Positions 921-53,897 of a stretch of DNA of 64,000 bases are shown here, piece after piece. Position 1 is the first letter of the stretch, and the number at the start of each line of letters is the position of its first letter. This stretch comes from Secundilactobacillus kimchicus JCM 15530 (lineage in GTDB: Bacteria > Bacillota > Bacilli > Lactobacillales > Lactobacillaceae). The DNA lies in NCBI RefSeq assembly GCF_001433995.1, contig NZ_AZCX01000005.1:62001-126000 (forward strand), in the 5' to 3' direction. The position numbers and the translations under genes were made by a program. The notes under the pieces are model-generated. The model did no database searches. It worked only from the letters and a program-made list of their open reading frames with translations, and was not told the origin of the DNA.

Positions 921-956
921 AAAAAAACACCCGGGCTCAAATGAGCTCCGGGTGTC
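921..956 (-). terminator. Rho-independent terminator of the cold-shock gene
   Basis: On the minus strand CACCCGG pairs with CCGGGTG, with an inner GCTC/GAGC stem, and is followed by a run of seven T. It lies 12 bases past the csp stop. Confidence 0.85.
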
Positions 957-967
957 CCAGCTAATCA

Positions 968-1168
968 TTAAGCTGGCGTAACGTTAACAGCTTGTGGGCC
1001 ACGATCGCCGTCTTCAACGTCCAAAGTAACCTTTTGGTTTTCTTCAAGCGTCTTGTAACCATCAATGTTGATGGCGCTGAAGTGAACGAATACGTCTGAA
1101 CCGTTGTCCAAAGTGATAAAACCAAAACCCTTGTCGCCGTTAAACCATTTAACAGTACCTTGTTCCAT
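968..1168 (-). CDS. csp: Cold-shock protein
   Basis: A 66-residue CspA-family OB-fold RNA chaperone. It starts [21 protein letters not shown]1 (KGFGFI, residues 13-18) and RNP2 (VFVHF, 26-30) are intact. The family binds single-stranded RNA, melts secondary structure and aids translation in the cold or in stationary phase. An upstream in-frame ATG at 1190-1192 exists, but the ATG at 1166-1168 has a GGAGGT ribosome site nine bases ahead and gives the standard length. A candidate promoter over 100 bases upstream implies a long leader, as is usual for csp mRNAs. The gene is monocistronic, with tandem terminators behind it. Confidence 0.95.
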
Positions 1169-1469
1169 AAGAATGAAACCTCCGTTGCGCATAGCGCGAA
1201 ATATTTTGCATTGATTACTCTGAATAAAGGAGTCATTCTCGCGAACAAAAGCCTTGTTTCGAAGTTAATGAATACATTACTAAGTAACTTAACATGGTTA
1301 GCACTAAATAGCAAGGCCGGACGCTCGCATTTTTGTGGGTCAGTTTGTTGTAACGTGACTGGGACGCTCTTTTGGCAGCCTAACAATTAATTAACTTTAT
1401 TTTGATATTGCGCATGGGGTGGTCGCGCGATACGCTAACTAATGAGAAAAATGGAATGGAGGAACACGA
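1169..1469. other. Divergent intergenic region between csp and crcB
   Basis: This 301-base stretch holds the csp leader and promoter on the minus strand and the crcB upstream region on the plus strand. Short open frames across it lack family similarity and are judged spurious. The crcB ribosome site is TGGAGGA at 1456-1462. I see no clear promoter for crcB and no convincing fluoride riboswitch. Confidence 0.5.
1286..1314 (-). promoter_or_regulatory. Candidate csp promoter
   Basis: On the minus strand TTGCTA (1309-1314) and TAAGTT (1286-1291) are 17 bases apart, with TG one base before the -10 hexamer (extended -10). Transcription would start near 1280, giving a leader of about 110 bases. Confidence 0.45.
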
Positions 1470-1844
1470 GTGAAAAAGATAATTGCAATTGCGGGGTTCG
1501 GGTTTTTAGGCGCTTTGTTACGCCTCACCCTTACTCAGTTAGCGGGTTCTCATCACGCACTCATGACAATTTTGATCAACGTGGCCGGGTCGCTGTTACT
1601 AGCCGTTGTGACCGGGTTGTTACCGCTCTGGCTACCGGTATCTGACACCATTTTAACCGGTTTAAGCGTTGGCTTTGTCGGGACCTTCACGACTTTTTCG
1701 ACCTTTTGTGTGGACACCGTCACTTTGCAGCAACCGTGGGGAGCAGTTTATTGGCTGATTAGTCTTGCCCTTGGCTATGGCGCCGCTTGGACGGGGGTTA
1801 CTTTAACGGACCGGGCAATCGCCAGGAGGAAGACTCAATGGTAA
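1470..1844 (+). CDS. crcB: CrcB/Fluc fluoride channel subunit 1
   Basis: A 124-residue integral membrane protein with four predicted membrane helices and the Fluc signature GFVGTFTTFSTF at residues ~68-79. Fluc channels export fluoride passively as dual-topology dimers. The start is GTG at 1470, eight bases after TGGAGGA. Its 3' end overlaps the second crcB by 7 bases. Paired crcB genes in Gram-positives encode complementary, oppositely oriented subunits of a heterodimer, which is the likely arrangement here. Basic residues at the C-terminus (IARRKTQW) would set its orientation. Confidence 0.92.
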   Translation: MKKIIAIAGFGFLGALLRLTLTQLAGSHHALMTILINVAGSLLLAVVTGLLPLWLPVSDTILTGLSVGFVGTFTTFSTFCVDTVTLQQPWGAVYWLISLALGYGAAWTGVTLTDRAIARRKTQW

Positions 1845-2188
1845 TGAACGTTATCGTCATGAGTTTGGCTGGCACCGTTGGCGCGGTCCTTCGATACGGG
1901 GTCACCCGGGCCGGAAATGTGTTGTTCAAGACGGTTCGGCTGCCAGTTGCCACGCTAGTGATCAACCTCGTCGGGGCCTTTTGTCTGGGACTAGCAGTGA
2001 GCCACTTGAATTCGGCGAGTTTAAGCTGGCAGTTGAGTAGTGGATTTCTTGCCGGGTTCACCACGTTTTCAACGTTTACCAATGAAGTCGTGACCCTGCA
2101 TAAAAAACGCCCCTCAATCGCCTTCGGGTACTTTGTTTTATCATCTGGGTTAGGGGTGGCGGCGGCCGTCGTTGGGCTGATCGTTTAA
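1838..2188 (+). CDS. crcB: CrcB/Fluc fluoride channel subunit 2
   Basis: A 116-residue partner of the upstream crcB, with the signature GFLAGFTTFSTF and four hydrophobic helices. The ATG at 1838 has an AGGAGGA site seven bases ahead and lies within the last codons of the first gene (7-base overlap), so translation is coupled. Longer in-frame starts upstream would remove this ribosome site and add a hydrophilic tail not typical of the family. The two together are expected to form a heterodimeric fluoride exporter in the cytoplasmic membrane. Confidence 0.92.
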   Translation: MVMNVIVMSLAGTVGAVLRYGVTRAGNVLFKTVRLPVATLVINLVGAFCLGLAVSHLNSASLSWQLSSGFLAGFTTFSTFTNEVVTLHKKRPSIAFGYFVLSSGLGVAAAVVGLIV

Positions 2189-2328
2189 GAAAAACACCTG
2201 TTAGGGTTAGGCCCCACTGAACGTCACTGGCTTGAAAAATAAATCTTAATTGTGGTCAATTGAATTGGCTTAAAATGGTCAAAGTAGGGTAAACTACCAT
2301 TAAGAAATAATACGAGAGAAGGGTGACA

Positions 2329-2799
2329 ATGACAACAATTTATGAGTTTAAGGAAACTGAGATGAACGGCGACGTTTTGGATTTGAGTCGCTATCGTGGT
2401 CAGGTCGTGTTAGTTGTGAATACCGCTAGCAAGTGTGGCTTGGCCCCACAGTTGGAAGGGTTAGAACGGCTCTATCAGACTTATCAGGACCAGGGGTTAG
2501 TTGTTTTGGGGCTGCCGTCAAATCAGTTTAAGCAGGAGTTGGCTACCGACGCGGAAGCCAGCGATTACTGTCAGGTTCACTACGGTGTCACCTTTCCCAT
2601 GACCAAGCGAGTGCGGGTCAATGGTGCCGAAGAGGACCCGCTATTCACGTATTTAAAAGCCGAGTCTGGTCACGGCAAAATCAAGTGGAACTACACCAAA
2701 TTTTTAATTGGTAAGGATGGCCACTTGCGACACCGATACGCACCAATGGCCAAGCCGGCAAAAATCGAGCCGGCGATTCAACAAGCGTTAAGGGAGTAG
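2329..2799 (+). CDS. gpx: Glutathione peroxidase family (thiol peroxidase)
   Basis: A 156-residue thioredoxin-fold peroxidase. Catalytic residues are visible: Cys36 in NTASKCGL, Gln66 in GLPSNQF, and Trp120-Asn121 in KWNYTKFLI. With Cys instead of selenocysteine, such bacterial enzymes usually reduce hydroperoxides using thioredoxin rather than glutathione. The ATG at 2329 is preferred over a GTG two codons upstream because the AGAAGGG ribosome site is better spaced. It is probably transcribed alone: no convincing operon partner lies on either side. It belongs with YaaA and the Dyp peroxidase to the oxidative-stress genes of the window. Confidence 0.92.
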   Translation: MTTIYEFKETEMNGDVLDLSRYRGQVVLVVNTASKCGLAPQLEGLERLYQTYQDQGLVVLGLPSNQFKQELATDAEASDYCQVHYGVTFPMTKRVRVNGAEEDPLFTYLKAESGHGKIKWNYTKFLIGKDGHLRHRYAPMAKPAKIEPAIQQALRE

Positions 2800-2897
2800 G
2801 GGCCTTAGCAACATGTTGGTACAAGTAACTGGGTGAATCTAAGATTAAATCTGGGGGGATTGCGACAAATTATTAGGAGTCCGGGGGGACAGTAGAT

Positions 2898-3455
2898 ATG
2901 AGGAGTGCACAAACAAGACAGCGATTAGCTGAAGCGTTGAAAGAATGTATGACAACAACGGATTTAAAGAAGGTCACAATTGAGATGATCGTCGAAAAAG
3001 CGAAGGTGACACGGACAACTTTTTATTATCATTTTGGCGATGTTCATTATCTGTTAGCCTGGATATTTGATCAAAACATCGTTGATCAACTGCAGCAGTC
3101 AGCCGAAAACAGTCGGTGGCAGGATGATTATCAATTGATGCTTGACTACGTGGCCGAGCATCGGCAATTTTGCTTGGCCTGTTTTCATTCTGCTGACCGT
3201 CAATTGTTAATTAATTTTTTGTGGACGTTGGCCAAACAGTTGATCCGAAAGACGGTTTCGGAGGTGAAACAGCACCCCGATAAAGAGGTCGAAGAGGCGG
3301 TTGCCGATTTTTTGGGTGGTGCCCTTGTGATGCAAATCGAGCAGTGGCTGACAGATGAGTTAACAACTAATCAGGCAGTGTTGATGCGGCGGGCTGAAAT
3401 TGTCATGGCGGGGACGGTTCACCGAATAATCAGGAGAAAGCGACAGCCATCATAG
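2898..3455 (+). CDS. TetR/AcrR regulator, first of a tandem pair
   Basis: A 185-residue TetR-family repressor with an N-terminal helix-turn-helix (residues ~27-46, VTIEMIVEKAKVTRTTFYYH) and a C-terminal ligand domain of the TetR_C_7/DhaS-like kind. The gene after it encodes a protein of the same length (185 residues from its likely GTG start) that aligns without gaps and is identical at about half the positions by eye. The pair therefore arose by duplication. The two precede oleate hydratase on the same strand, so regulation of that gene, perhaps in response to fatty acids, is a reasonable inference. The ligand is not deducible. Confidence 0.85.
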   Translation: MRSAQTRQRLAEALKECMTTTDLKKVTIEMIVEKAKVTRTTFYYHFGDVHYLLAWIFDQNIVDQLQQSAENSRWQDDYQLMLDYVAEHRQFCLACFHSADRQLLINFLWTLAKQLIRKTVSEVKQHPDKEVEEAVADFLGGALVMQIEQWLTDELTTNQAVLMRRAEIVMAGTVHRIIRRKRQPS

Positions 3456-3588
3456 CTAATTTCAGAAAATTTGACCTGGTATTGACTGACCGGCGCATGA
3501 GCTCGATTCGACGCACAGTTTCAGAAGAATTGTGCATTGTTCAGCCAGTCTTGACCCGATAAAATGAATGAGCAAGGGGGCGATCACC

Positions 3589-4146
3589 GTGACGGTAGAT
3601 TCCACCAAACGGCGGTTGGCGGCCGCGCTAAAAAAATGCACGGAAACGACGCCGCTAAACAAGATCACAATTGAAATGATTGCCGAAACGGCACAGGTGA
3701 CACGCAACACCTTTTACTATCACTTTAGCGACCTCCACGACTTATTAGCTTGGACGTTAGACAACGATGTGATTGTTGAATTGGAACCCTACACGAAGCT
3801 CAGTCGGTGGCAGGATGGTTATCGACGGATGTTGGATTATGTGGCGTTGAACCGGCACTTTTGCTTGCAGTGTTTTCGATCATTAGACCGGCAACTTTTG
3901 GAAGATTTTTTAGTCTCGGTAGCGCGGCAAATGGTTCAAGGCGTTGTTCGGGATGCAGCCGTCAGCGTCGATGAAGAAGTTGAAGCGGCCATTATGGACT
4001 TCTATGGCGGGGCCATTGTGATGCAATTGGTCCAGTGGTTGGCCACGGGGCTGCAGGATGATCAAGAAGTATTGTATCACCGTGCGGAAATCGGTCTGGA
4101 TGGGGCCATTGAAAACGCAATTCGACAGGCGACTAAATCTGAATAA
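3589..4146 (+). CDS. TetR/AcrR regulator, second of a tandem pair
   Basis: A paralogue of the preceding regulator with the same helix-turn-helix (ITIEMIAETAQVTRNTFYYH). The best start is GTG 3589: AAGGGGG lies eight bases ahead, and the resulting 185-residue protein matches the neighbour residue for residue at the N-terminus (MTVDSTKRRLAAALKKC against MRSAQTRQRLAEALKEC). An ATG at 3568 has no ribosome site. A terminator follows the gene. Next comes oleate hydratase, with a small palindrome downstream of its promoter, so this protein is the more likely direct repressor of it. That is inferred from position only. Confidence 0.85.
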   Translation: MTVDSTKRRLAAALKKCTETTPLNKITIEMIAETAQVTRNTFYYHFSDLHDLLAWTLDNDVIVELEPYTKLSRWQDGYRRMLDYVALNRHFCLQCFRSLDRQLLEDFLVSVARQMVQGVVRDAAVSVDEEVEAAIMDFYGGAIVMQLVQWLATGLQDDQEVLYHRAEIGLDGAIENAIRQATKSE

Positions 4147-4156
4147 CGGGGTTTTT

Positions 4157-4185
4157 GGGCAAACCGGCAAGGTTGCCCATTTTTT
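4157..4185 (+). terminator. Terminator between TetR-2 and oleate hydratase
   Basis: GGGCAA pairs with TTGCCC around a 10-base loop and is followed by A and a run of six T. It separates the regulator transcript from the oleate hydratase promoter. Confidence 0.7.
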
Positions 4186-4202
4186 ATTGGCTGAAACGGT
4201 CC

Positions 4203-4236
4203 TATAATGAAGGTGTAAAAGGTTGAATTGTCAATT
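4203..4236 (+). promoter_or_regulatory. Oleate hydratase promoter with AT-rich palindrome
   Basis: A consensus -10 TATAAT lies at 4203-4208; the -35 is poor (T-rich, from the preceding terminator). Downstream, at 4226-4236, AATTG-T-CAATT is a perfect inverted repeat and a candidate TetR operator in the initially transcribed region. The weak -35 suggests an activated or regulated promoter. Confidence 0.5.
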
Positions 4237-4256
4237 AATTATCTGGAGGGATTCCT

Positions 4257-5951
4257 ATGATTAAACATAAAGCCGTTATGATTGGTGCCGGGCTAGCGAA
4301 CCTGGCCGCTGCTGTTTACCTGATTCAAGAAGGTCACTGGCAAGGTGACCGCATCACGTTTTATTCGATTGATGATCACGGGTCAAACGACGGCGCGACC
4401 GTGGCCGATTTTAAAGATAATTATTGGAATGAGAACCATCCACTCGAAAACCAACACGGGTTCATTGCTCGTGGGGGACGGATGCTGAACTACCGGACGT
4501 ACGTTGACCTCATGGACCTGTTGGACCGAGTCCCATCCGTGACTGAACCGGGGATGACGGCAGCTGAGGATACTCGTGATTTTGATCGAAAACACCGGAC
4601 GTTTGACAAGGCACGCTTAATGTCAGCCGACCAGGGAATTATCAATGGTGGTCATTTGGGGCTAAATAATCATGACCGCCTCCTATTAAGTAAGCTGGTG
4701 TTAATGCCGGATTCAAAGGAAGAACAACTGGATAATGTGTCGATTGCCGACTACTTTAAGCGGTCCCCGCACTTTTTTGAGACGAACTTTTGGTTGATGT
4801 GGGAGACCACCTTTGCCTTTCGGACGCAAAGTTCAGCTCAGGAATTACGCCGATACATGCATATGATGATCTATGAATTTACGCAAATTGAGCATTTGGT
4901 CGGGGTCAATCGGACCCGGTATAACCAGTTTGAAAGTATTATGAATCCCATCATTAAGTACTTGGAAGCCCAGCACGTGACGTTTGTGTTGAACCGCCGC
5001 GTGATGGACTGGCAGTTTGCCACAACGGCCATGCAAGACGAAATCAAGGTGACGGGGTTGGAAATGCAAAATATTGAGACCGGTGAATCAGAGCACGTGG
5101 CGGTGGATGACGATACTGCAGTGTTCTTCACCAACGGCTCAATCACCGATTCGGCGACGTTTGGTGATCTCACGCATCCAGCTGCTGAAAACATGGACTA
5201 TGGCGCAGCGTCAGGTCTGTGGAAAAAGGCGACGGATCATTTCTACAATCTTGGCAATCCAGATAAGTTCTTTGCGGACCGAAACGCTAGCGAGTGGGTG
5301 AGCTTTACATTGACGACGAAGAACCACTTGCTGTTAAACGAAATTACTAGAATTACGACTCAGGTCCCAGGCAACGCGCTTAATTCGTTTGTTTCTACGC
5401 AACCCATTACCCCACTTGGACAACGGGACGTTAACATGTCGATTGTTGTCCACCACCAGCCCCACTTTACAAGCCAAAAGCCTAACGAGTCAGTCATTTG
5501 GGGTTACTTCTTGTACCCACGGCGGCGTGGTGAATTTGTGGATAAGGCTTATATTAAGATGACCGGCGAAGAAATGGTGGCCGAATTGCTGGGTCAGCTA
5601 TCGAAAGTAGATCCTGGTCCTGGTAACATCATGGACAAAAAGGCAGCGATTATGGATAGTGTTGTCAATAACATCCCGGTTTACATGCCATATGCGTCGG
5701 CCCTCTTTAATAACCGGGCTAAGAGCGACCGACCAGAAGTGATTCCAGCGCATTCCAACAATCTGGCGTTTACCGGTGAGTTTGTTGAACAACCGTATCA
5801 GATGGTCTTCACGGAACAAAGTGCGGTGCGGTCGGGTGAAATTGCCGCCTTTCACTTTGCTGGTATTCCGATGAGTCAGCTGGTTGAGACGCCACGATAT
5901 GACCGCGATCCCAAGACTTTGGCCCGGGCAACTAAGAAAATGATGATGTAA
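4257..5951 (+). CDS. ohyA: Oleate hydratase (MCRA family, CLA-HY type)
   Basis: A 564-residue FAD-binding hydratase that adds water to the cis-9 double bond of oleic or linoleic acid, giving 10-hydroxy fatty acids. The dinucleotide-binding motif GAGLANLAAA is at residues 10-19, and the family block RYMHMMIYEFTQIEHLVG lies near residue 200. Length and sequence match the Lactiplantibacillus CLA-HY enzyme that begins linoleic acid saturation. After ARGGR the residue is Met76 (ARGGRMLNYR), where the longer 640-residue hydratases have the catalytic Glu (GGREM); this is typical of the shorter subgroup. The enzyme is membrane-associated but lacks a signal peptide. The start has a CTGGAGGG site. A strong terminator follows. 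Confidence 0.95.
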   Translation: MIKHKAVMIGAGLANLAAAVYLIQEGHWQGDRITFYSIDDHGSNDGATVADFKDNYWNENHPLENQHGFIARGGRMLNYRTYVDLMDLLDRVPSVTEPGMTAAEDTRDFDRKHRTFDKARLMSADQGIINGGHLGLNNHDRLLLSKLVLMPDSKEEQLDNVSIADYFKRSPHFFETNFWLMWETTFAFRTQSSAQELRRYMHMMIYEFTQIEHLVGVNRTRYNQFESIMNPIIKYLEAQHVTFVLNRRVMDWQFATTAMQDEIKVTGLEMQNIETGESEHVAVDDDTAVFFTNGSITDSATFGDLTHPAAENMDYGAASGLWKKATDHFYNLGNPDKFFADRNASEWVSFTLTTKNHLLLNEITRITTQVPGNALNSFVSTQPITPLGQRDVNMSIVVHHQPHFTSQKPNESVIWGYFLYPRRRGEFVDKAYIKMTGEEMVAELLGQLSKVDPGPGNIMDKKAAIMDSVVNNIPVYMPYASALFNNRAKSDRPEVIPAHSNNLAFTGEFVEQPYQMVFTEQSAVRSGEIAAFHFAGIPMSQLVETPRYDRDPKTLARATKKMMM

Positions 5952-10740: not shown

Positions 10741-11021
10741 TTAAAGACTACGCGTAGAAGAGTAGTTATCAGGAATGTTCAAAGGGAGCCCTGATTAGTG
10801 AGACGGGGTAACTGAACTGATAATGAAAGTAATCTACAAGTCGTGGCCGCGACGGAATTCCGAAGTGGCCGCTGGGAGTGCGCCCATTACAGCAATGAAG
10901 TATCGTCAGCGGATTGCGCATCCGATTGACTGTACTTTCTAAGCTGACCATCGTGAGGTGGTCAGAAAACAAGGTGGTAACGCGTGAAAACGTCCTTAGC
11001 GAAAGCTAAGGGCGTTTTTTA
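10741..11021 (+). promoter_or_regulatory. T-box riboswitch controlling brnQ
   Basis: Stem I carries AGTA (10761-10764) and a GTGAGA apical motif. The T-box core AAGGTGGTAACGCG is at 10971-10984, followed by a terminator (CGTCCTTAGC/GCTAAGGGCG and six T, 10991-11020). The specifier bulge after GAAA reads GTAATC. GTA (Val, 10829-10831) followed by A fits the usual register; ATC (Ile, 10832-10834) is the alternative. Uncharged tRNA would give antitermination and BrnQ synthesis. Confidence 0.88.
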
Positions 11022-11050: not shown

Positions 11051-12433
11051 ATGAATAAAACGTTAACCAAACGCCAATACTTAATTTTAGGATCATTACT
11101 TTTCGGTTTATTCTTCGGTGCTGGGAACCTGATTTTTCCCATTCATTTAGGTCAGTTAAGTGCTGGTAACTGGGGACCAGCCACCATTGGATTTTTGCTT
11201 ACTGCTATCTTATTGCCCCTTTTATCCATTCTTGCGATTAGTCTGACGCGGAGCAACAGTGCCTACGACTTGGCCTTACCCGCAGGCAAGAAGTTTGCGT
11301 TATTCTTTTTGATCCTGATTCACCTGACGCTTGGAATCCTAGTGGCCTCACCACGGACGGCAACCACCACGTTTGCCATTGGCATTCAACCGTTTTTACC
11401 AAAGCAATTTGACCAAATCGGGTTACTGATTTTCTCCGCTTTGTTCTTCGGTATCGCTTACCTGTTGTCGTTTAACCAGAGCAAAATCACAGATTATGTG
11501 GGAAAGCTATTGAACCCAATCCTGCTTGCCTTGTTGGCCTTTATCTTCTTCATGGCCTTCATTATCAAAGGTGATCTGCGACACATCAATATTTTACCCA
11601 CTGGAACCGGGGCCAATGCTAATCTGATTAACGGGTTTCTACAAGGGTACAACACGATGGACGCGCTAGCAGGTCTTGGATTCGGGGTCACGATTATTGC
11701 AGCCTTGAAACTGTTCGGACTGACCAGTGCCAAGGATCGTTCCAAAGCAGTCGCTAAGGTTGGGGCAATCAGCATGGGCCTCGAGTCCCTCATTTACATC
11801 TTTTTAATTGCGCTGGGTGCTTCGAGTTTGAAATACCTTAAGCTAACGCCTGAAGGGGGCTCAGCCTTCACCCAAATTATGACCCATTATACGGGGCTCG
11901 CTGGGACCGCGATTTTAGGAGCTGTGACGTTTTTGGCCTGCATCACCTCATGTATTGGTATGATGGCGGCGCTGTCGCAGGACTGGGGAAACCGGTTCCC
12001 ACGGTTGGGGTACCACTTTTTCCTAACGATCAGCTGTCTCGGTGCTTTTATTATCGCTAACTTTGGGTTAACCCAAATTATTTTATATTCGACACCTTTG
12101 CTTTCATTTATTTATCCGTTTGCCATGGCGCTCATCTTCTTAGGTATGTTACACCCGTTTATCGGCAAGAACCCGTTGATTTACAAAGCAACGATTGCCT
12201 TAACGACTATTCCCGCCATTTTAGATGGCATTCATACGTTACCACCATTCTTTGCTAACATGAGCTTTTTCTCTTCAATCAACACTTGGGCCGGCCATAC
12301 GGTGCCACTCTTCAATGTGGGCTTGGATTTCTTCCCATTCATGTTGGTTGGCCTGTTGGGGAGCTGGATTATTGCCAAGTTAATGAACTTGACGCCTGCT
12401 CCAACTTTAGGCTCTGAGAAAAACAAGATCTAG
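11051..12433 (+). CDS. brnQ: Branched-chain amino acid carrier BrnQ
   Basis: A 460-residue LIVCS-family symporter with about twelve membrane helices. It has the typical start TKRQYLILGSLLFGLFFGAG and FGAGNLIFP (residues ~22-30). It imports Leu, Ile and Val with a sodium ion or proton. The ATG has an AGGAGG site nine bases ahead. It is controlled by the T-box leader, so it is expected to rise when the cognate tRNA is uncharged. Brn/Liv/Azl genes elsewhere in this window point to active management of branched-chain amino acids. A hairpin downstream ends the transcript. Confidence 0.95.
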   Translation: MNKTLTKRQYLILGSLLFGLFFGAGNLIFPIHLGQLSAGNWGPATIGFLLTAILLPLLSILAISLTRSNSAYDLALPAGKKFALFFLILIHLTLGILVASPRTATTTFAIGIQPFLPKQFDQIGLLIFSALFFGIAYLLSFNQSKITDYVGKLLNPILLALLAFIFFMAFIIKGDLRHINILPTGTGANANLINGFLQGYNTMDALAGLGFGVTIIAALKLFGLTSAKDRSKAVAKVGAISMGLESLIYIFLIALGASSLKYLKLTPEGGSAFTQIMTHYTGLAGTAILGAVTFLACITSCIGMMAALSQDWGNRFPRLGYHFFLTISCLGAFIIANFGLTQIILYSTPLLSFIYPFAMALIFLGMLHPFIGKNPLIYKATIALTTIPAILDGIHTLPPFFANMSFFSSINTWAGHTVPLFNVGLDFFPFMLVGLLGSWIIAKLMNLTPAPTLGSEKNKI

Positions 12434-38174: not shown

Positions 38175-38309
38175 TGAATAACCTCCTGATGTTTCATGCC
38201 ATTATTATACGTCCATTAAACAAACTTAACCGAATTATTTTGAAGTCGTTGACTTTAGCGAGCGCCATCGTTAACATGAGACTATTAGAAAAATGAGGGG
38301 ATGATGAGA

Positions 38310-39017
38310 ATGACGGATGACCTATCACCACGGGCTGGGGTGATGGAAGCCGTCCCGACGGCGTTTGGCTACATTGGTGTTGGGATAGCCTTTGGCATTA
38401 TTGCAAAGGCGAACGGCTTTAGTTTGTTAGAAATCTTGTTACTGTCAATGGTTACATATGGGGGCTCCGCTCAGTTTATTATGGTGAGCATGATGGCGGT
38501 ACACGCTAGCTTGCTGGCCATTTTACTCTCCGTCTTTCTGGTCAATTCACGGATGATTTTAATGAGCACAGTGGTGGCGCCCTATTTTAAATCGGAATCT
38601 ATGATGCGAAATATCGTTATCGGGTCCCTGATTACTGATGAAACATTCGCGTTGGGCATGAATAAGTTGAATTATACGGACCACACCTTACGATTCGGGT
38701 GGTACAACGCCGCTAATTTATTCGCGTATCTCATCTGGGCTGTGGCGACGGTGGTCGGTGGGGCATTAGGGACTTTGATTGTTGATCCCCAGAAATTTGG
38801 GATGGATTTTGCGATTGTGGCCATGTTCATCGGATTGTTGTACCTGCAAGTCATTGCCGATAAGACGATTCGGCTAACGATTCAACTGGCTGTCATTGGC
38901 TTTGTCATCGTCATTATGGTGGTCGGCCTGATTTTTATTCCCAAAAATGCACTCTTGTTGTTAGCCGCTATTTTGGGATGTTCATTTGGGGTGGTGTTAA
39001 AACATGGCGCTCGATAG
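38310..39017 (+). CDS. azlC: AzlC-family branched-chain amino acid exporter
   Basis: A 235-residue membrane protein with six or seven helices. It is the large subunit of an AzlCD/BrnFE exporter. GIAFGIIAKANGF and the MVTYGGSAQF block (about residues 50-59) are family marks. With AzlD it exports Leu, Ile and Val or analogues, relieving excess after peptide uptake. Three in-frame ATG codons lie at 38301, 38304 and 38310; the last is best spaced from GAGGGG. Its end overlaps azlD by 14 bases. Confidence 0.92.
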   Translation: MTDDLSPRAGVMEAVPTAFGYIGVGIAFGIIAKANGFSLLEILLLSMVTYGGSAQFIMVSMMAVHASLLAILLSVFLVNSRMILMSTVVAPYFKSESMMRNIVIGSLITDETFALGMNKLNYTDHTLRFGWYNAANLFAYLIWAVATVVGGALGTLIVDPQKFGMDFAIVAMFIGLLYLQVIADKTIRLTIQLAVIGFVIVIMVVGLIFIPKNALLLLAAILGCSFGVVLKHGAR

Positions 39018-39330
39018 TTACGTTTTGGGGGTTATTTTAGTTAGTGGGTTAGTCACTTGGTTATCGCGAATTTTCCCTTTTGTCTTATTGAAACACTTTA
39101 GTTTACCAGCAGTGGTGATTAATTTTTTGAGCTTTGTGCCCATTAGTATTATGACCGCACTGTGGATTAATAGCTTGTTTATTCAACACTTGGGGCACTT
39201 TCCAGCAGTGGATTGGCCTAACTTTTTAGCGAGTGGGCCGACCATTTTAAGTGCCATGATTTCTAAGAACTTGATGGTAATCGTGGTTGTTGGCGTGATT
39301 TCTTTAGCAGTCATAAAGGCTGTCATGTAA
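39004..39330 (+). CDS. azlD: AzlD-family small exporter subunit
   Basis: A 108-residue, four-helix partner of AzlC. The conserved SRIFPFVLLKHFSLPAVV segment (about 21-38) and a C-terminal helix ending in AVM fit AzlD. The ATG at 39004 lies inside azlC, so the two are coupled. The pair is convergent in function with the Liv importer that follows on the same strand, but the liv transcript has its own promoter at 39371. Confidence 0.9.
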   Translation: MALDSYVLGVILVSGLVTWLSRIFPFVLLKHFSLPAVVINFLSFVPISIMTALWINSLFIQHLGHFPAVDWPNFLASGPTILSAMISKNLMVIVVVGVISLAVIKAVM

Positions 39331-39370: not shown

Positions 39371-39400
39371 TTGACGTTTTCTCATTCGTATGGGTATACT
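39371..39400 (+). promoter_or_regulatory. liv operon promoter
   Basis: TTGACG (39371-39376) and TATACT (39395-39400) are 18 bases apart. Transcription would start near 39407, 35 bases before the leader-peptide ATG. Confidence 0.75.
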
Positions 39401-39441
39401 CTAATCATTAAATCAAGCAATCTTAACGGGAGGTTACCAAC

Positions 39442-39537
39442 ATGTCAGCTCAATACACCATCATCGCGGTAACCACTACCGTTCAAGATTTAGTCTTATT
39501 ATTAAAAACCAAGGACCCGACATTGACTGCGTTGTAG
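39442..39537 (+). CDS. Leader peptide of the liv operon (31 residues)
   Basis: A 31-codon frame with a strong CGGGAGG site eight bases ahead of its ATG. Eleven of 31 residues are Ile, Leu or Val: Ile7-Ile8, Val10, Val14, and a run Leu-Val-Leu-Leu-Leu at 17-21 using TTA and GTC codons, plus Leu28 and Leu31. It has no membrane or enzymatic features. Promoter, leader frame, alternative hairpins and a terminator precede the branched-chain amino acid import operon. This is the layout of ribosome-mediated attenuation, as known for the ilv-leu leader of Lactococcus. Function is inferred from layout only. Confidence 0.65.
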   Translation: MSAQYTIIAVTTTVQDLVLLLKTKDPTLTAL

Positions 39538-39561
39538 GACACGCCTACACCACATCAACAA

Positions 39562-39650
39562 GTTGAGCCCTTATTTATGTTTTTAATGATGAGGGCTTGA
39601 TCAATATCAGCGGATTTCAAACCTCATTCATTAAAGAATGAGGTTTTTTT
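39562..39650 (+). promoter_or_regulatory. Attenuator of the liv operon (alternative hairpins and terminator)
   Basis: The terminator is a perfect 10-bp stem (AACCTCATTC 39620-39629 with GAATGAGGTT 39636-39645) followed by seven T. Its 5' arm can instead pair with AATGATGAGG at 39585-39594 (10 bp, one bulge). That segment can also pair upstream: GTTGAGCCCT (39562-39571) with AGGGCTTGAT (39592-39601). The three stems exclude one another in sequence. Codons 24-27 of the leader (39511-39521) are partly complementary to 39562-39572, which would link translation to the switch. Confidence 0.6.
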
Positions 39651-39714
39651 ATTGCCTGACACCAAGGGAGGTCAGTTTGTCAGACAAGCTAATTACAGAA
39701 AGTGGGATGGAATA

Positions 39715-40914
39715 ATGATGAAGAAAAGTATGATGAAGAAATTGACTGGGTTTGCCACAATTGCTGCAACAGCAATGATTTTTGCAGGATGTAGTACCGC
39801 TTCAACGACCGGTTCTGGGAATAAGCAAACCGGCAATACAATTAAAATTGGCGTCAACATGGAACTTTCTGGAGCTGCCGGGGGATATGGAAATCAACAA
39901 AAGCAAGGCATCCAGATGGCAGTTGATGAAATCAACGATGCTGGTGGGATAAACGTCAATGGCAAGAAAAAGAAAATTGATTTGATTATCAAGGATAATA
40001 AAACGGCGACGAGTACCAGTGCCTCGGTTGCTGCTCAGTTGGCTAACAACGATAAGGTTTCAGCCATCATTGGACCGGCGACGACCAATGCCGGGACCGC
40101 GCAGACGCCTAACATTACTAAGGCCGCTGTGCCAGCCTTGAGCCCATCAGCGACTGATCCTGACTATACGTTGCAAAAGAACGGCAAAGTTCAGCCCTAT
40201 GTCTTTCGGGCCTGTTACCAAAACAACTTCCAGGGAGGCACAGCCGCTAAGTTTACATACAATAATTTGAAAGCTCGTCGGGTGGCCATTTTGGGAGATA
40301 ACTCAACCGATTATGGGACTGGTTTGGCGAAGGCCTTTAAGAATCAGTTTAAGGGTAAGATCGTCGCCAACCAGACGTTTGCTGCGGGGGATAAAGATTT
40401 CAACGCTGTGTTGACCTCGTTTAAGAGCAAAAAAGCGGATGCCATTTTTGTCCCTGGTTACTACTCAGAAGTTGGACTGATCATTAACCAAGCTCGTCAA
40501 GCTGGCATCAACGTCCCAATTGTGGGGACTGACGGGATGGCCGATCCTCAGTTGGTCAAAATTGCGGGTGCCAAGAACGCGACTAACGTGTACTACACCA
40601 CACCATTTTCAACAATGGCCTCGAAGAAAAACCCAACGGCCGCTAAGTTTATGAAGGCTTACCAAGCTAAATATCATCAAGTCGCCCCAACCTTCTCAGC
40701 TCTGGCTTACGATTCCGTCAACATGGTGAAACAAGCCATTGAAAACGAAAAGTCAGCAGACTCGAAGAAAGTGGCGGCCGGTCTGGCAAAAATTAAGAAC
40801 TTTGACGGTGTCACTGGGACCATTACGATTGATAAGGATCACAACGCTCAAAAGCCAATTGCCATCGAAACTTTGAAGAATGGTAAGGTCGTTAACTCAG
40901 TTTCAATTAAGTAG
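39715..40914 (+). CDS. livJ: Branched-chain amino acid ABC substrate-binding lipoprotein
   Basis: A 399-residue lipoprotein. The signal peptide ends in the lipobox FAGC with Cys26, which is lipidated and anchors the protein to the outer face of the membrane. The rest is a type I periplasmic-binding fold of the LivJ/LivK family (IGVNMELSGAAGGYGNQQ near the start). It captures Leu, Ile, Val or a related amino acid for LivHMGF. ATG 39715 and 39718 are both possible, with GGGATGG ahead. Longer frames upstream would run into the attenuator. Confidence 0.93.
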   Translation: MMKKSMMKKLTGFATIAATAMIFAGCSTASTTGSGNKQTGNTIKIGVNMELSGAAGGYGNQQKQGIQMAVDEINDAGGINVNGKKKKIDLIIKDNKTATSTSASVAAQLANNDKVSAIIGPATTNAGTAQTPNITKAAVPALSPSATDPDYTLQKNGKVQPYVFRACYQNNFQGGTAAKFTYNNLKARRVAILGDNSTDYGTGLAKAFKNQFKGKIVANQTFAAGDKDFNAVLTSFKSKKADAIFVPGYYSEVGLIINQARQAGINVPIVGTDGMADPQLVKIAGAKNATNVYYTTPFSTMASKKNPTAAKFMKAYQAKYHQVAPTFSALAYDSVNMVKQAIENEKSADSKKVAAGLAKIKNFDGVTGTITIDKDHNAQKPIAIETLKNGKVVNSVSIK

Positions 40915-40936
40915 GCTATGAATGGAGGCCAGTACA

Positions 40937-41815
40937 TTGCAAACATTTTTCCAACAACTGATTAACGGCCTCTCCCTAGGTAGCATATACGCCCTTTTGG
41001 CGTTGGGCTATACGATGGTGTACGGCATTATCAAGTTGATCAACTTCGCACACGGGGACATTTACATGCTGGGTGCGTTTTGGGGCTATTACGTCATTAA
41101 CTTTTGGCACTTTAACTTCCTGTTTGCCCTCCTTTCTGCGATGCTGGTGGGGGCTGTTGCTGGGGTGATTATTGAATACTTCGCTTATCGCCCATTACGC
41201 CACGCGCCACGGATTACCGCGTTGATTACCGCGATTGGCGTCTCATTTCTCTTGGAAAACGGGATGTCGTACCTATACGGGTCAACGCCTAGGGACTTCC
41301 CGCAAATTATCGAGCCCGTGAACTATCACGTTTTCGGAGTCCTGATTTCCAACATTCAGATCCTGATTCTGGTCACCGCCTGCCTGCTCATGGTGATCCT
41401 ACAAGTGATCATTAAGAAAACCAAGATGGGAAAGGCCATGCGGGCCGTTTCTGTCGACCCGGATGCTGCCGAATTGGTGGGGATTAACCTGAATCGCACG
41501 ATTTCATTTACCTTCGCATTGGGCTCTTCAATGGCCGGTGCCGCTGGGGTGCTGATTGGCTTGTACTACAACTCAATCGACCCATTGATGGGGATGACGC
41601 CAGGGATTAAGGCTTTCGTGGCGGCCGTCGTTGGCGGGATTGGATCCGTACCAGGGGCGTCAATCGGCGGCTTTTTGATTGGCCTTTTGGAAACGCTCGT
41701 TCAATCGGTCGGCCTGTCGGCATATAAGGATGCCGCAGTCTACTTCGTCTTAATTGTGATTTTGCTGGTTTTGCCGGCTGGAATCTTTGGCAAAAATATC
41801 AAAGAGAAAGTGTAG
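40937..41815 (+). CDS. livH: Branched-chain amino acid ABC permease LivH
   Basis: A 292-residue inner-membrane permease with about eight helices. The start FFQQLINGLSLGSIYALLAL and the GYTMVYGIIKLINFAHGD block are typical of LivH. The best start is TTG 40937, with GGAGG eight bases ahead; the ATG at 40922 overlaps that site. It pairs with LivM. The gene lies 22 bases after livJ and is followed at once by livM. Confidence 0.92.
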   Translation: MQTFFQQLINGLSLGSIYALLALGYTMVYGIIKLINFAHGDIYMLGAFWGYYVINFWHFNFLFALLSAMLVGAVAGVIIEYFAYRPLRHAPRITALITAIGVSFLLENGMSYLYGSTPRDFPQIIEPVNYHVFGVLISNIQILILVTACLLMVILQVIIKKTKMGKAMRAVSVDPDAAELVGINLNRTISFTFALGSSMAGAAGVLIGLYYNSIDPLMGMTPGIKAFVAAVVGGIGSVPGASIGGFLIGLLETLVQSVGLSAYKDAAVYFVLIVILLVLPAGIFGKNIKEKV

Positions 41816-42784
41816 GTGACGATTTTGAAGGCCAATTTTAAATACAATGTGAGCTGGCTTATCATCATGGTCGCTGGCTTTTATCTGATGAACACTCTGA
41901 TGTTGATGGGCATTATTGATTCCTTCATTGAAAATATGTTGGTTGTGATTGGCATCAACATTATTCTGGCGACCGGGTTGAATCTGGTCATCGGTTTTGC
42001 GGGGCAGTTTTCGTTGGGACACGCTGGATTTATGGCCATTGGGGCGTACGCGACGGCCATTATCACGACTAATTCTGCCACGGCCGGTGGGTTTTATACT
42101 TCCATCGTGGTCGGTGTCATCATTGCGATTATCGCCGCTATTATCGTTGGTGTCCCAACGTTGCGGCTTCGAGGGGATTACTTAGCCATTGCGACGATGG
42201 GCGCCGCTGAAATTATCCGAATTATCATTAATAATCTACAGATCACCAACGGACCGTCTGGGATGTTTAATATCCCACAATTCGCCACTTGGCCGGTTGT
42301 GTACATCATGGTTTGCGTCACGACAATTTTAATCGCAAACTTTGTCCGGAGTCGGGCTGGTCGCGCGATTAAATCAGTTCGGGAAGATGAAATTGCGGCT
42401 GAGTCTGCCGGAATTAACACGACCAATTGGAAGCTGGCTGCCTTTGTCTTTGGGGCCGCGACTGCCGCTATTGCGGGGTCGTTAGACGCCTCGTACCTCC
42501 AAACGATTGCCCCAACCAACTTTGGCATTATGGAATCCATTTCCATTTTGATTATTGTGGTCTTAGGTGGGGTTGGTAGCCTGACCGGAAGCGTTGTGGC
42601 CGCCGTTGTTCTGGGGATCTTGGATACGGCCTTGCAAAATTTTGGGACGTTGCGGATGGTGATTTATGCGGCTGCCTTGATCTTGATTATGATTTTTAAA
42701 CCAACCGGATTACTGGGGAGTCATGAATTGTCATTTAAACACCTATTTTCTGGCACTAAGCGAAAGGGGCGTGTCCGCTCGTGA
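41816..42784 (+). CDS. livM: Branched-chain amino acid ABC permease LivM
   Basis: A permease of up to 322 residues with about nine helices; GLNLVIGFAGQFSLGHAGFM is the family block. Two starts are possible: GTG 41816 directly after the livH stop, or TTG 41825 with AGGTGA as ribosome site. It forms the membrane channel with LivH. The stop overlaps the livG start by four bases (GTGA). Confidence 0.92.
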   Translation: MTILKANFKYNVSWLIIMVAGFYLMNTLMLMGIIDSFIENMLVVIGINIILATGLNLVIGFAGQFSLGHAGFMAIGAYATAIITTNSATAGGFYTSIVVGVIIAIIAAIIVGVPTLRLRGDYLAIATMGAAEIIRIIINNLQITNGPSGMFNIPQFATWPVVYIMVCVTTILIANFVRSRAGRAIKSVREDEIAAESAGINTTNWKLAAFVFGAATAAIAGSLDASYLQTIAPTNFGIMESISILIIVVLGGVGSLTGSVVAAVVLGILDTALQNFGTLRMVIYAAALILIMIFKPTGLLGSHELSFKHLFSGTKRKGRVRS

Positions 42785-43563
42785 GTACGATTTTAAAAGT
42801 TGATGATTTGGTCAAGAATTTCGGCGGACTCACGGCCGTCTCAGACGTGTCGATGACCCTTAATGACGATGAACTCGTGGCCCTAATTGGCCCAAATGGC
42901 GCGGGAAAGACGACGCTGTTCAACCTGTTAACGGGCGTGATTACGCCTAGTTCTGGTGCCATTAGTTTTCGCGGTCCCAAGGGAACGGTGACGTTAAACG
43001 GCAAAAAGGCGTACCAAATCGCCAACCTTGGACTGGCCCGCACCTTTCAAAATATTCGGTTGTTTAAGGATCTGACCGTTTTGGATAACGTGCTCGTTGC
43101 CATGACAAGTCAGTACAAGGAGGGCTTGCTATCGACGTTATTCCGCCTGCCAAGCTACTATAAAAAAGAGGCTAAAATTGCCAAAGAAGCGACGGAACTG
43201 CTCGCAATCTTTGATCTACAAGAATCGGTCGATGTTTTAGCCAAAAACTTGCCGTATGGGATTCAACGACGGCTAGAAATTGTTCGAGCCTTGGCGATGA
43301 AACCGCAAATCCTGTTCTTAGACGAACCCGCCGCCGGGATGAATCCGGAAGAGACCGCTGATTTGACACGGTTGATTAAAAAAGTCCAACGGGAATTCCA
43401 TATCACAGTGGTGTTGATTGAACACGATATGTCGCTGGTCATGAACTTGGCCGAACGGATCTACGTGCTCGATCATGGCGCCATGCTGGCTCAGGGAACC
43501 CCAACTGAAATTAAGCAAAATCCGGCTGTTATTAAGGCCTATCTTGGGGAGGAGGTATCTTGA
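42781..43563 (+). CDS. livG: Branched-chain amino acid ABC ATPase LivG
   Basis: A 260-residue ATPase. Walker A is GPNGAGKTT (37-45), the signature is a degenerate LPYGIQRRLEIVRAL and Walker B is ILFLDEPAAGMNP, all typical of LivG. The start is GTG 42781, overlapping the livM stop. It ends one base into the livF ATG. It supplies energy for import with LivF. Confidence 0.93.
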   Translation: MSTILKVDDLVKNFGGLTAVSDVSMTLNDDELVALIGPNGAGKTTLFNLLTGVITPSSGAISFRGPKGTVTLNGKKAYQIANLGLARTFQNIRLFKDLTVLDNVLVAMTSQYKEGLLSTLFRLPSYYKKEAKIAKEATELLAIFDLQESVDVLAKNLPYGIQRRLEIVRALAMKPQILFLDEPAAGMNPEETADLTRLIKKVQREFHITVVLIEHDMSLVMNLAERIYVLDHGAMLAQGTPTEIKQNPAVIKAYLGEEVS

Positions 43564-44267
43564 TGCTGAGCGTTGATCAATTAGTTGTAAACTACGGTGT
43601 CATTAACGCTGTTAAAGGCGTTAGTTTCGACATTAACGAAGGTGAAATCGTGTCGTTGATTGGCGCGAACGGCGCTGGAAAAACCACCATTCTCAAGACT
43701 GTTTCCGGCCTCTTACGGCCAGCGTCAGGAACAGTGACGTACGAGGGTCATGAGATTCAACGGGAAAAGGCGCCGAAAATTGTGGCCCAAGGAATCTCTC
43801 AAGTGCCAGAGGGGCGGCATATTTTTGCGGGCTTGACGGTGAAGGAAAACCTCCAAATGGGGGCGTTTCTCCAGAGCGATCGCGCAAATATTGCCACCAC
43901 TTTTCAAACCGTGTACGACCGGTTCCCGGTGTTAAAGGAACGCCAAAATCAGGATGCGGCGACACTATCCGGTGGGGAACAGCAAATGTTGGCGATGGGG
44001 CGGGCGCTGATGTCACGGCCGAAGCTGCTGTTGCTTGACGAACCGTCAATGGGGCTTGCTCCCATTTTCATTAACGAAATTTTTGATATTATTACGGCCA
44101 TTAAAGAACAGGGGACAACAGTGCTCCTCATTGAACAAAACGCCAAAAAGGCCTTGTCGATTTCTGATCGGGGTTACGTTCTCGCATCAGGTGAAGTCAA
44201 GATGAGTGGTACGGGCTCGGAGTTGCTGGCTAATGCGGATGTTCAAAAGGCCTATCTAGGAGGGTAA
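43563..44267 (+). CDS. livF: Branched-chain amino acid ABC ATPase LivF
   Basis: A 234-residue ATPase: Walker A GANGAGKTT, signature LSGGEQQMLAMGRAL, Walker B LLLLDEPSMGLAP. ATG 43563 has GGAGGAGG seven bases ahead and overlaps the livG stop (TGATG). It completes the LivJHMGF importer. The next gene, a CBS-ACT protein, starts two bases after its stop and is clearly part of the operon. Confidence 0.93.
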   Translation: MLSVDQLVVNYGVINAVKGVSFDINEGEIVSLIGANGAGKTTILKTVSGLLRPASGTVTYEGHEIQREKAPKIVAQGISQVPEGRHIFAGLTVKENLQMGAFLQSDRANIATTFQTVYDRFPVLKERQNQDAATLSGGEQQMLAMGRALMSRPKLLLLDEPSMGLAPIFINEIFDIITAIKEQGTTVLLIEQNAKKALSISDRGYVLASGEVKMSGTGSELLANADVQKAYLGG

Positions 44268-44269
44268 AA

Positions 44270-44893
44270 ATGACGGTTGCAGATTACATGACAGATAAAG
44301 TGATTACCGTTAATCCAGACACGTTAGTCAGCGTGGCGGTTTCGATGATGAAGGACAACCAGATTCATCGGTTACCCGTCATTGAAACTGGGAAGTTAGT
44401 GGGGCTGGTTACGGCTGGCATCGTGGAAGCCGCGTCACCGTCAGCAGCCACTAGTTTGTCGATTTACGAGGTCAACTATATTTTCAACAAAATGACCGTG
44501 GGTGAAATCATGGAAAAAGAAGTCCAAACGATTTCTTACGACGCCATTTTGGAAGATGGAATTTACAAAATGCGCCAACACGATATTGGCGTCCTCCCCG
44601 TTATGGACGGGGAACAGGTTGTCGGTATTTTGACGACAAACGACATCTTAGATGCGTTTTTGGACATCACTGATTACCAACAGAAAGACACGGTGGTGCA
44701 AATTGTCATCGAGCAGGACAGCACTGGTATTATTTTTAAAATTGGGCAACTCATGGCGGACAATGATCTCAACATTCAAACGTTAATGGTGACCCGGCAC
44801 ATGGGCGAGATTGTGATTGAAATGCACGTTGATCCGTCTGATCAAATTTCGGTTCGAGCCGTCCTTGAATCAGCTGGGTTCACCGTCCGGTAG
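44270..44893 (+). CDS. CBS-CBS-ACT regulatory protein (AcuB-like) in the liv operon
   Basis: A 207-residue cytosolic protein with two CBS domains (about residues 1-60 and 74-130) and a C-terminal ACT domain (about 140-205, VVQIVIEQDSTGIIFKIGQL). CBS domains bind adenine nucleotides and ACT domains bind amino acids, so it could sense energy and branched-chain amino acid status. It lies two bases after livF, and a similar CBS protein closes the liv operon in streptococci. It may gate the transporter or act elsewhere; no enzymatic domain is present. The ATG has an AGGAGGG site. Confidence 0.85.
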   Translation: MTVADYMTDKVITVNPDTLVSVAVSMMKDNQIHRLPVIETGKLVGLVTAGIVEAASPSAATSLSIYEVNYIFNKMTVGEIMEKEVQTISYDAILEDGIYKMRQHDIGVLPVMDGEQVVGILTTNDILDAFLDITDYQQKDTVVQIVIEQDSTGIIFKIGQLMADNDLNIQTLMVTRHMGEIVIEMHVDPSDQISVRAVLESAGFTVR

Positions 44894-52654: not shown

Positions 52655-53779
52655 GTGGGGGTCTATTTCTACGACATTAAACTAGCGGTGGTTTTCTTTC
52701 CGCTAGTGGCGATTTTAATTACGTTTCCGTTTTTACTAGTTCACTATCACCGGTTTGGGGCCATTTCTCGGTGGTCGATTTTAATGCTTTACAGCTTTGT
52801 GTTTTATATGATGTGCGCTTATTTCTTGATTGTTTTTCCACTGCCGTCCGTCGCAGCCGTGGCGAAGCTAACAACGCCAGAGTATAATTTGCGGCCGCTG
52901 TTATTTATCCATGAATTTATGGCGTACAACCCATTTCGACTGAGTGATCCGGCAACCTGGTTGGCGGCAATCAAGGCCCCGACGTTGATTCAACCGTTAT
53001 TTAATATTTTTCTGACGGTGCCATTTGGCGTCTTCTTGCGCGTGTATTTTAGGCGGCCATGGTGGCAAGTGGTCCTGCTATCATTTACGCTATCGCTGTT
53101 CTTTGAGTTGACCCAGCTGTCTGGCCTCTACGGCATTTATCCGCGGCCTTATCGGTTGTTTGACGTGGACGATTTACTGCTAAATACCACTGGGGGTTGG
53201 CTGGGCTTTGGCCTTGGACGACTTGTTTTGCCACTGCTACCATCGTCAGCTCATACGATGGCCAAGTTGCAACGCCGGTCACACGTGGTTTCATCTTTTC
53301 GACACGCTACGGCGGCGGTGGTCGACTGGATCTTTGTTTTGGTGGCCACGATTTTGCTGCAGTTAGCCTTGGGTGTGATGCATGTGGAATTGGGCAACTT
53401 GTCACCCGTCTTGTGGCCGGTTGCTGTTGGTCTGGTTATTTTACTGCCAGAATTAATCTGGCATCAAACCATTGGCCAACGGGCCGTTCACATTAAGCTA
53501 GTAGCAAGCAATCCCCAAGAGCGATTAGCTGCTAAGAACGTGGTGTTACGGACCCTCATTGGGTTTTCATTGGTCGGCGTTTGGACCATCGTCGAAGTCG
53601 TGTTGGCCGAATTAAAATTACCACTGGTCCTCTCTGACCGGGTAGCGTTTGGGTTACTGGCCTACACCGGACTTAATTTTCTCGTGATGGGTCTGGATGT
53701 GTTGGTCGATATTTTTCGGCCCAGTCACGATTTATTTTTCGAACGGTGGAGCGGGACGCGCCTGGTTTCCACTTATTAG
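52655..53779 (+). CDS. VanZ-like and RDD-domain membrane protein
   Basis: A 374-residue membrane protein in two parts. The N-terminal half has VanZ-like features (PLFNIFLTVPFGVFLRV, LFFELTQLSG, DVDDLLLNTTGGWLGF). The C-terminal part, about residues 210-370, is an RDD domain (VVDWIFVLV, WHQTIGQRAVHIKL). VanZ proteins raise tolerance to glycopeptides such as teicoplanin; RDD domains occur in membrane proteins of varied or unknown function. The start is GTG 52655, nine bases after GAGAGG. It has its own promoter and terminator. Confidence 0.85.
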   Translation: MGVYFYDIKLAVVFFPLVAILITFPFLLVHYHRFGAISRWSILMLYSFVFYMMCAYFLIVFPLPSVAAVAKLTTPEYNLRPLLFIHEFMAYNPFRLSDPATWLAAIKAPTLIQPLFNIFLTVPFGVFLRVYFRRPWWQVVLLSFTLSLFFELTQLSGLYGIYPRPYRLFDVDDLLLNTTGGWLGFGLGRLVLPLLPSSAHTMAKLQRRSHVVSSFRHATAAVVDWIFVLVATILLQLALGVMHVELGNLSPVLWPVAVGLVILLPELIWHQTIGQRAVHIKLVASNPQERLAAKNVVLRTLIGFSLVGVWTIVEVVLAELKLPLVLSDRVAFGLLAYTGLNFLVMGLDVLVDIFRPSHDLFFERWSGTRLVSTY

Positions 53780-53816
53780 GTAGAACGACGCGATTCGGTT
53801 AGCTTCAAAGTTGGAT

Positions 53817-53849
53817 AAAAAACCCACTTCATTTTTGAAGTGGGTTTTT
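53817..53849. terminator. Bidirectional terminator
   Basis: AAAAACCCACTTC pairs perfectly with GAAGTGGGTTTTT around a six- to seven-base loop, with A and T runs on both sides. It separates converging genes. Confidence 0.9.
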
Positions 53850-53897
53850 AGTATGCCGTTAGCCGGTACAACGAGGCTAATCAGTTGCCGTTAACCA

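Follow-up and report, generated by a model that had tools for sequence, protein, structure and literature searches.

The livJHMGF genes (39715-44267) lie on the forward strand of the window, the 64,000-nucleotide stretch of DNA analysed here, with azlCD (38301-39330) on the 5' side and a CBS-domain gene, starting at 44270, on the 3' side. The initial annotation took the five genes for a branched-chain amino acid importer, and their best NCBIfam families (LivJ-type, LivH, LivM, LivG and LivF) agree with this, although all five scores are under the curated cut-offs; Pfam domains are above threshold for LivJ, LivH and LivG, three out of five genes tested. The azlC and azlD genes, recognised by Pfam, encode a branched-chain amino acid exporter pair directly 5' of the importer's putative attenuator, and by sequence AzlD also lies 5' of the element in one relative (L013). 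The features of the region are:

39371..39400, +, promoter-like hexamers TTGACG-18-TATACT (frequency not above chance)
39428..39433, +, leader ribosome-binding site GGGAGG (sequence; a purine-rich site in 81/81 aligned relatives)
39442..39537, +, leader frame of 31 codons (sequence, alignment of relatives)
39490..39504, +, Leu-Val-Leu-Leu-Leu run, codons 17-21, with codons 19-21 as the core triple (core Leu-Leu-Leu in 80/81)
39492..39508, +, segment A1, the Leu-codon RNA, partner of C (folding, co-evolution, covariation)
39511..39525, +, segment A2, partner of B (co-evolution, covariation)
39560..39575, +, segment B, partner of A2 or C (co-evolution, covariation)
39580..39600, +, segment C, partner of A1, B or D (co-evolution, covariation)
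39619..39632, +, segment D, 5' arm of the terminator and antiterminator partner (co-evolution, covariation, terminator scan)
39636..39650, +, segment E, 3' arm of the terminator and T run (co-evolution, terminator scan)
39715..40914, +, livJ, substrate-binding lipoprotein (NCBIfam best family, Pfam)
40922..41815, +, livH, permease (NCBIfam best family, Pfam)
41816..42784, +, livM, permease (NCBIfam best family)
42781..43563, +, livG, ATPase (NCBIfam best family, Pfam)
43560..44267, +, livF, ATPase (NCBIfam best family)

The leader frame runs from ATG 39442 to TAG 39537 (+) and encodes MSAQYTIIAVTTTVQDLVLLLKTKDPTLTAL. As the initial annotation had it, the frame has 31 codons and a ribosome site, and 11 of its residues are branched-chain (6 Leu, 2 Ile and 3 Val), five of them in the Leu-Val-Leu-Leu-Leu run, where codon 17 is the earliest Leu codon in the leader. 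Folding of the 246-nt leader yields -72.2 kcal/mol, compared with -43.3 +/- 4.1 kcal/mol for shuffled sequences (z -7.0; 0 of 200 shuffles equal). The terminator also bears up, with an 11-pair stem at 39619-39646 followed by a T run, found once where shuffles lead one to expect 0.2. The proposed promoter fares less well, since its hexamers are present but no commoner than chance (2 matches found, 1.7 expected). No Rfam family matches anywhere in 39371-39714, even at E up to 5, and the putative attenuator family is absent from Rfam 15.

Read from the sequence, 39585-39594 can pair upstream, as part of the long hairpin of the minimum-energy fold, or with 39622-39632. The segments would thus form a chain of mutually exclusive pairings: A1:C with A2:B as a single long hairpin, B:C, C:D (the antiterminator) and D:E (the terminator). 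The chain was examined in an alignment of 81 sequences from 12 genera (genus labels g1 to g55), drawn from 86 gathered sequences after leaving out a duplicate (L118), two of the leuA type (L121 and L126) and two too diverged (L136 and L156). Among the 81, two are not shown to lie 5' of livJ, one being before a peptide-binding protein gene (L048) and the other at a contig end (L041). Co-evolution was tested by comparing the pairing energy of each strand with its own partner to that with strands of different genera, over 5000 genus permutations. Own partners pair better for A1:C (-12.3 vs -10.8 kcal/mol cross-genus, 3 permutations as good), A2:B (-9.9 vs -7.1, none), B:C (-15.6 vs -13.4, none), C:D (-12.1 vs -10.9, 7) and D:E (-15.6 vs -12.0, none). 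Five control pairings outside the model gave no such signal (1164 to 4722 of 5000 permutations as good), which bears out the earlier proposal of mutually exclusive stems.

Covariation scores point the same way. They are 0.354 for the no-ribosome structure, 0.244 for the antiterminated structure and 0.296 for B:C with D:E, against at most 0.136, 0.100 and 0.126, respectively, with slid partners, and are reached by 0 of 500 shuffles. Counts of double-change pairs (35, 321 and 26 of 500 shuffles do as well in the three states) and of further pair types (173, 451 and 143 of 500) are less decisive. The counted pairings were written by hand, chiefly from the window sequence, and hence lean towards it, and only 5 pairs of B:C are countable in one register. 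Across the 81 sequences, D:E has standard pairs in 97.7% of cells and C:D is paired in 86.6%; an intrinsic terminator precedes the first gene. RNAalifold with segment constraints on the 81-row alignment returned poor consensus stems, because registers shift between genera.

The leader has an in-frame start codon in all 81 sequences (79 ATG, 2 GTG), a length of 23-40 residues and a purine-rich site 5' of the chosen start in 81/81, although the start-choosing score itself favours such sites. The core triple is Leu-Leu-Leu in 80 of the 81, the exception being Val-Leu-Ile (g54), and it is spelled in six ways, nearly always with one spelling per genus. Bases 1 and 3 of the core codons vary, while base 2 is T in 243 of 243 cells; 155 of these T cells stand opposite G in the A1:C stem, a position at which C would make the better pair. 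The alignment indicates that the core codons are selected as codons, and since the A1:C pairing acts on the same bases, the codon and RNA constraints overlap. The second codon 5' of the core triple is Leu in 68/81, and the codon preceding the triple (codon 18 in the window) is Ala in 61/81, Val in 17/81 and Leu in 3/81. The upstream Ile and Val residues show no conservation in the 81 sequences, and leader N-termini differ from genus to genus. Past the run, a run-to-A2 spacing of 5 and 8 (vs 6 and 3) shifts the A2 frame in 13/81 with the A2 RNA kept, so the C-terminus of the peptide is not the conserved thing. This pattern suggests selection for leucine in the run and for RNA pairing in the part after it. 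As the Val and Ile codons are unconserved, the signal would be leucine, and leucine alone is most likely the sensed amino acid. Of the branched-chain signal proposed earlier, the leucine part is retained and the isoleucine and valine parts are not.

The effect of ribosome position was modelled by folding the RNA between the ribosome edge and the 3' end of D, as it would be before E is transcribed, at equilibrium and with kinetics ignored. Averaged over genera, an edge 20 to 4 bases before the core gives C:D a probability of 0.12-0.23. The value rises to 0.51-0.63 for edges 0 to 8 bases past the core start and falls back to 0.13-0.19 for those 20 to 54 bases past it. The corresponding window values are 0.53-0.66 for edges from 0 to +6 past the core start, no more than 0.14 for the other edges tried, 0.02 without a ribosome and 0.00 with the ribosome at the stop codon. 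If the ribosome is taken to cover 9 or 11 bases beyond the first base of the A-site codon, the favourable edge corresponds to a stall at codon 17. The favourable range is narrow: for a 13-base footprint the value is 0.39 at codon 17, higher at codons 15 (0.57) and 16 (0.66), 0.03 at codon 14 (Val), 0.08 at codon 18 and 0.07, 0.01 and 0.00 at codons 19, 20 and 21. According to this model, the antiterminator is favoured in the window only when the ribosome stands at codon 17 or immediately before it. The initial annotation had left the polarity unclear, suggesting that a stall at the Leu run might cover 39511-39521 and favour termination and that an upstream stall would favour read-through. The folding model divides the two outcomes within the run: a codon-17 stall would leave 39511-39525 largely free and favour the antiterminator, while codons 19-21, leader completion or no ribosome would lead to termination.

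With the 13-base footprint, the probability of C:D is 0.3 or more in 59 of the 81 sequences when the A site holds the run's first codon, in 21 when there is no ribosome and in 18 when the ribosome is at the stop. A Leu codon precedes the run in 51/81 leaders, and in 30/81 the first Leu is exactly at the run start; a stall at a Leu codon before the run is predicted to be of no help to the antiterminator. Equilibrium folding fits the window and the genus average, and fits g12, g54, g6 and g9 poorly. With the edge far upstream, where the model wants the switch off, g12 reaches 0.30 and g54 0.74, and with the edge far downstream, where it also wants it off, g12, g54, g6 and g9 reach 0.39-0.50. The peak in g3 is 0.39.

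Homology searches indicate that the liv leader is a conserved RNA family. A DNA search found the element in 15 of 60 genomes, own genome included, with 12 of these among the 15 genomes of the window's genus; the three without the element are also without LivJ at E up to 1e-40. All 15 of these first homologues are directly 5' of a livJ-like gene. A covariance model built from them (cut-off E up to 0.01) gave 98 matches in 87 of 397 Lactobacillaceae genomes, and in the same set LivJ (E up to 1e-40) occurs at 123 places, spread over 111 genomes. Seventy of the 98 matches are on the same strand and at most 450 bases 5' of a LivJ place, so that 70 of the 123 places have a copy in the first pass and 10 more a diverged one, the other 43 having none detected or being incompletely examined. 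Upstream regions were read for 40 of the 53 places without a first-pass match. Ten, all g12, hold the diverged copies, and in 26 a clear counterpart was not seen, the candidates in L137 (Ala-Leu-Leu-Leu) and L156 (Val-Val-Ile-Thr-Leu-Leu) being questionable; the element is therefore not universal for livJ in Lactobacillaceae. A T-box search (E up to 0.01) of 20 of the 40 regions gave no match. An exact-motif scan of named genomes returned 24 records in Secundilactobacillus, Lentilactobacillus, Pediococcus, Paucilactobacillus and Bombilactobacillus. A Lactobacillales search (295 genomes, Lactobacillaceae included) gave nothing outside Lactobacillaceae better than E 6.7e-4, and two inspected matches there looked like chance.

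Thirteen of the 28 model matches away from livJ were inspected: one is at a contig end (G229), one is before a family-5 peptide-binding protein gene (G132, L048), three are before leuA (G002, G011 and G017), three are antisense to a true element, and five are terminators without a Leu leader. Seven candidates (L120, L122, L124, L065, L054, L055 and L059) were excluded by eye before gathering as terminators without a Leu-run leader; this judging did not cover the model matches L056, L058 and L060-L063. A weak model match within the window, at 53726-53852, is an ordinary terminator. The placement of the element before the peptide-binding protein gene in L048 (g54) suggests leucine control of peptide uptake.

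Two other livJ leaders depart from the leucine pattern or from the family. One of the two livJ copies of G094 (g22; L136:281-424, 37.8 bits with the model) has a leader with a Leu-Ile-Ile-Ile run, possibly reflecting a changed sensed amino acid; the other copy, L137, has the frame with Ala-Leu-Leu-Leu. Three of nine g17 livJ regions (L135, L168 and L169) have a leader that looks unrelated and ends Ala-Leu-Leu-Leu-Leu-Leu-Met-Leu. None of the three matches the model convincingly (the sole match in L168 is 20 bits), and they would represent a second leucine leader, perhaps an independent one.

The window's own genome has a second leucine-attenuator-like leader of the same architecture before leuAB (L190:504-671, G000:C23). 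It encodes MTTAQQQHQSTNFETALLALLL, ending Ala-Leu-Leu-Ala-Leu-Leu-Leu-stop directly after the run, and it keeps the segment order of the liv leader; its fold has a z of -8.4, and the model matches it at E 5e-7. The LeuA that follows (L190:710-1870) is above one 2-isopropylmalate synthase cut-off, and the next gene is above the 3-isopropylmalate dehydrogenase cut-off. With an 11-base footprint, run codons 17-22 of this leader give C:D a probability of 0.72-0.73 and codon 16 one of 0.72, codons 14 and 15 give 0.02-0.03, and the stop codon gives 0.17; edges at least 36 bases past the core give 0.64-0.73 and are beyond the reach of a ribosome on the leuA leader. Thirteen of 20 fetched LeuA loci were inspected, and ten of these, own genome included, have such a leader, while none was seen at two leuA loci of other families and at G026; G011, apart from the ten, also has one. 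LeuA proteins of the window's genus have about 390-430 residues, compared with 510-539 in the open frames of other families, and match only the first 380 of 514 model positions, so that the C-terminal part, which we take to be the leucine-feedback domain, seems to be missing. Attenuation may be the main leucine control at leuA in this genus.

Taken together, the results make the liv leader very probably a leucine-sensing, ribosome-mediated attenuator of livJHMGF transcription. This reading has the support of the segments and their co-evolution, of the Leu codons and of the thermodynamic dependence on ribosome position, and the conserved frame, Leu codons and stems in relatives favour the ribosome-sensed attenuator that the initial annotation had put forward. 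We infer the stall itself, the coupling of ribosome and polymerase, and a change of read-through in the cell. On the best reading, the attenuator would be off by default and switched on by a shortage of charged leucyl-tRNA. As long as no ribosome occupies the leader, A1-A2 would pair with C-B, C would be hidden, D:E would form and transcription would stop. When charged leucyl-tRNA is short, the ribosome would stop at codon 17 and cover A1 while A2 stays free; A2:B would then form, C would be free for D, and the operon would be read. When leucine is plentiful, the ribosome would reach the stop codon just past A2 and cover A2, so that B:C and then D:E would form and transcription would again stop.

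It is improbable that the leader senses isoleucine and valine in addition to leucine. The 11 branched-chain residues among 31 in the window leader, and an importer family that carries all three amino acids, would fit such a signal, but conservation is limited to the Leu run and codon 18 is mostly Ala. Average Ile is 0 in g50 and g6, stalls at the Val codons 14 and 18 of the window give the low antiterminator values quoted above for the 13-base footprint, and in the same genome the leader of the leuA type contains five Leu and neither Ile nor Val. A general translation sensor, in which any slow or stalled ribosome (caused, for example, by an antibiotic) switches the operon on regardless of leucine, draws on the prediction that any stall with the ribosome edge at the core start would have this effect. 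This is very unlikely, as the Leu codons are kept through synonymous changes, the genes downstream are amino-acid genes, and a second copy precedes leuAB. Hardly any weight falls on the frame as a functional small protein next to an unrelated terminator: the start, the ribosome site and the Leu-rich stretch are indeed conserved, but N-termini differ between genera, the C-terminal frame shifts in 13/81, and beyond the run conservation tracks the RNA pairing.

In lactobacilli, amino-acid sensing is better known from T-boxes. The two T-boxes that the initial annotation placed in the window exist as matches to the Rfam model, but they score 86.8 and 55.9 bits (E 1.9e-17 and 1.7e-9), under the gathering score of 93:

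10741-11000, +, T-box before a BrnQ-type branched-chain carrier gene (11051-12433)
16692-16919, -, T-box before a 2-dehydropantoate 2-reductase-like gene (15639-16628)

The window also has a cspA-type thermoregulator match at 924-1293 (-), with 71.8 bits against a gathering score of 78. The presence of T-boxes in the window, and their control of other transporters in lactobacilli (PMC2494555), would be in keeping with a T-box, riboswitch or protein-binding leader at livJ in which the short frame is incidental. This is barely credible, given that neither the T-box model (RF00230) nor any other Rfam family matches the leader region at E up to 5, and that the Leu triple persists through six spellings, something that a ligand of the RNA would not call for.

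A broader proposal extends the leucine-sensing attenuator to a single RNA scaffold serving as a portable amino-acid sensor of Lactobacillaceae, with livJHMGF, leuAB and, in a single genome, a family-5 peptide-binding protein gene as its regulon and with its specificity changed by re-spelling the codon run, much as with T-box specifier codons. We offer it tentatively and with somewhat more doubt than belief. The candidates for changed specificity are the g22 livJ copy (Leu-Ile-Ile-Ile) and the g54 copy (Val-Leu-Ile).

The enterobacterial leuABCD attenuator involves a choice between antiterminator and terminator, as the liv leader would. The leuABCD leader has 28 residues with 4 Leu (PMC6123439), and starvation turns the operon on, as predicted for the liv leader with its own Leu codons. 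Compared by description, the liv leader differs in mainly targeting an importer and in its Lactobacillaceae host, and its Leu codons are themselves part of the stem that hides the antiterminator. The ilvD attenuator of S. aureus is also from Bacillota, with a short Leu-codon leader, a terminator and a demonstrated response to Leu depletion, whereas its target is biosynthesis, its leader reads Ile-Ile-Ile-Leu-Leu, and its proposed antiterminator pairs with the U tail of the terminator (PMC5794164). The ilvB-II uORF of Corynebacterium is a conserved Ile/Leu/Val-rich upstream frame with terminator and antiterminator (PMC11109978, PMC10272879), but it belongs to Actinobacteria and biosynthesis and has other codons and another structure (PMC11109978). 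The T-boxes of Lactobacillus transporters likewise sense amino-acid supply before transporter genes (PMC2494555); unlike the liv leader, T-box leaders bind tRNA directly and need no translation. A Streptomyces livJ motif also lies 5' of a LIV-type binding protein gene, but is a riboswitch candidate for which the available text mentions no leader frame (PMC11109978).

Leader-peptide attenuation of branched-chain biosynthesis is described for enterobacteria, S. aureus and Listeria, with predicted cases in Lactococcus, Streptococcus and Corynebacterium (PMC6123439, PMC5794164), and is called common for Gram-positive biosynthetic operons (PMC6123439). Among lactobacilli, Table 1 of one source appears to place an isoleucine T-box before an ABC transporter in L. 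acidophilus and L. johnsonii and to give no T-box for a branched-chain ABC transporter of L. plantarum (PMC2494555). Leader peptides replace T-boxes at hisS in bacilli (PMC2965389), histidine attenuators occur in other Bacillota lineages (PMC9413887), and upstream-frame and livJ motifs are reported in other groups (PMC11109978, PMC8632094). No earlier description of the liv-leader element was found in the literature searched, which was mostly without subscription papers; the mechanism is known, and the RNA family itself seems to be undescribed.

The leader-peptide leucine attenuator proposed here recurs in at least 12 Lactobacillaceae genera, before an importer instead of a biosynthetic operon. 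In its own genome it would also serve leuAB, and two T-box-like leaders share the window with the liv copy. Since attenuators and T-box-like leaders occur in one organism, it can be tested why the ribosome reads one amino acid and a tRNA-binding RNA reads others. The element also offers a test of whether the closeness of ribosome and polymerase early in the transcript is sufficient for such a switch in these bacteria.
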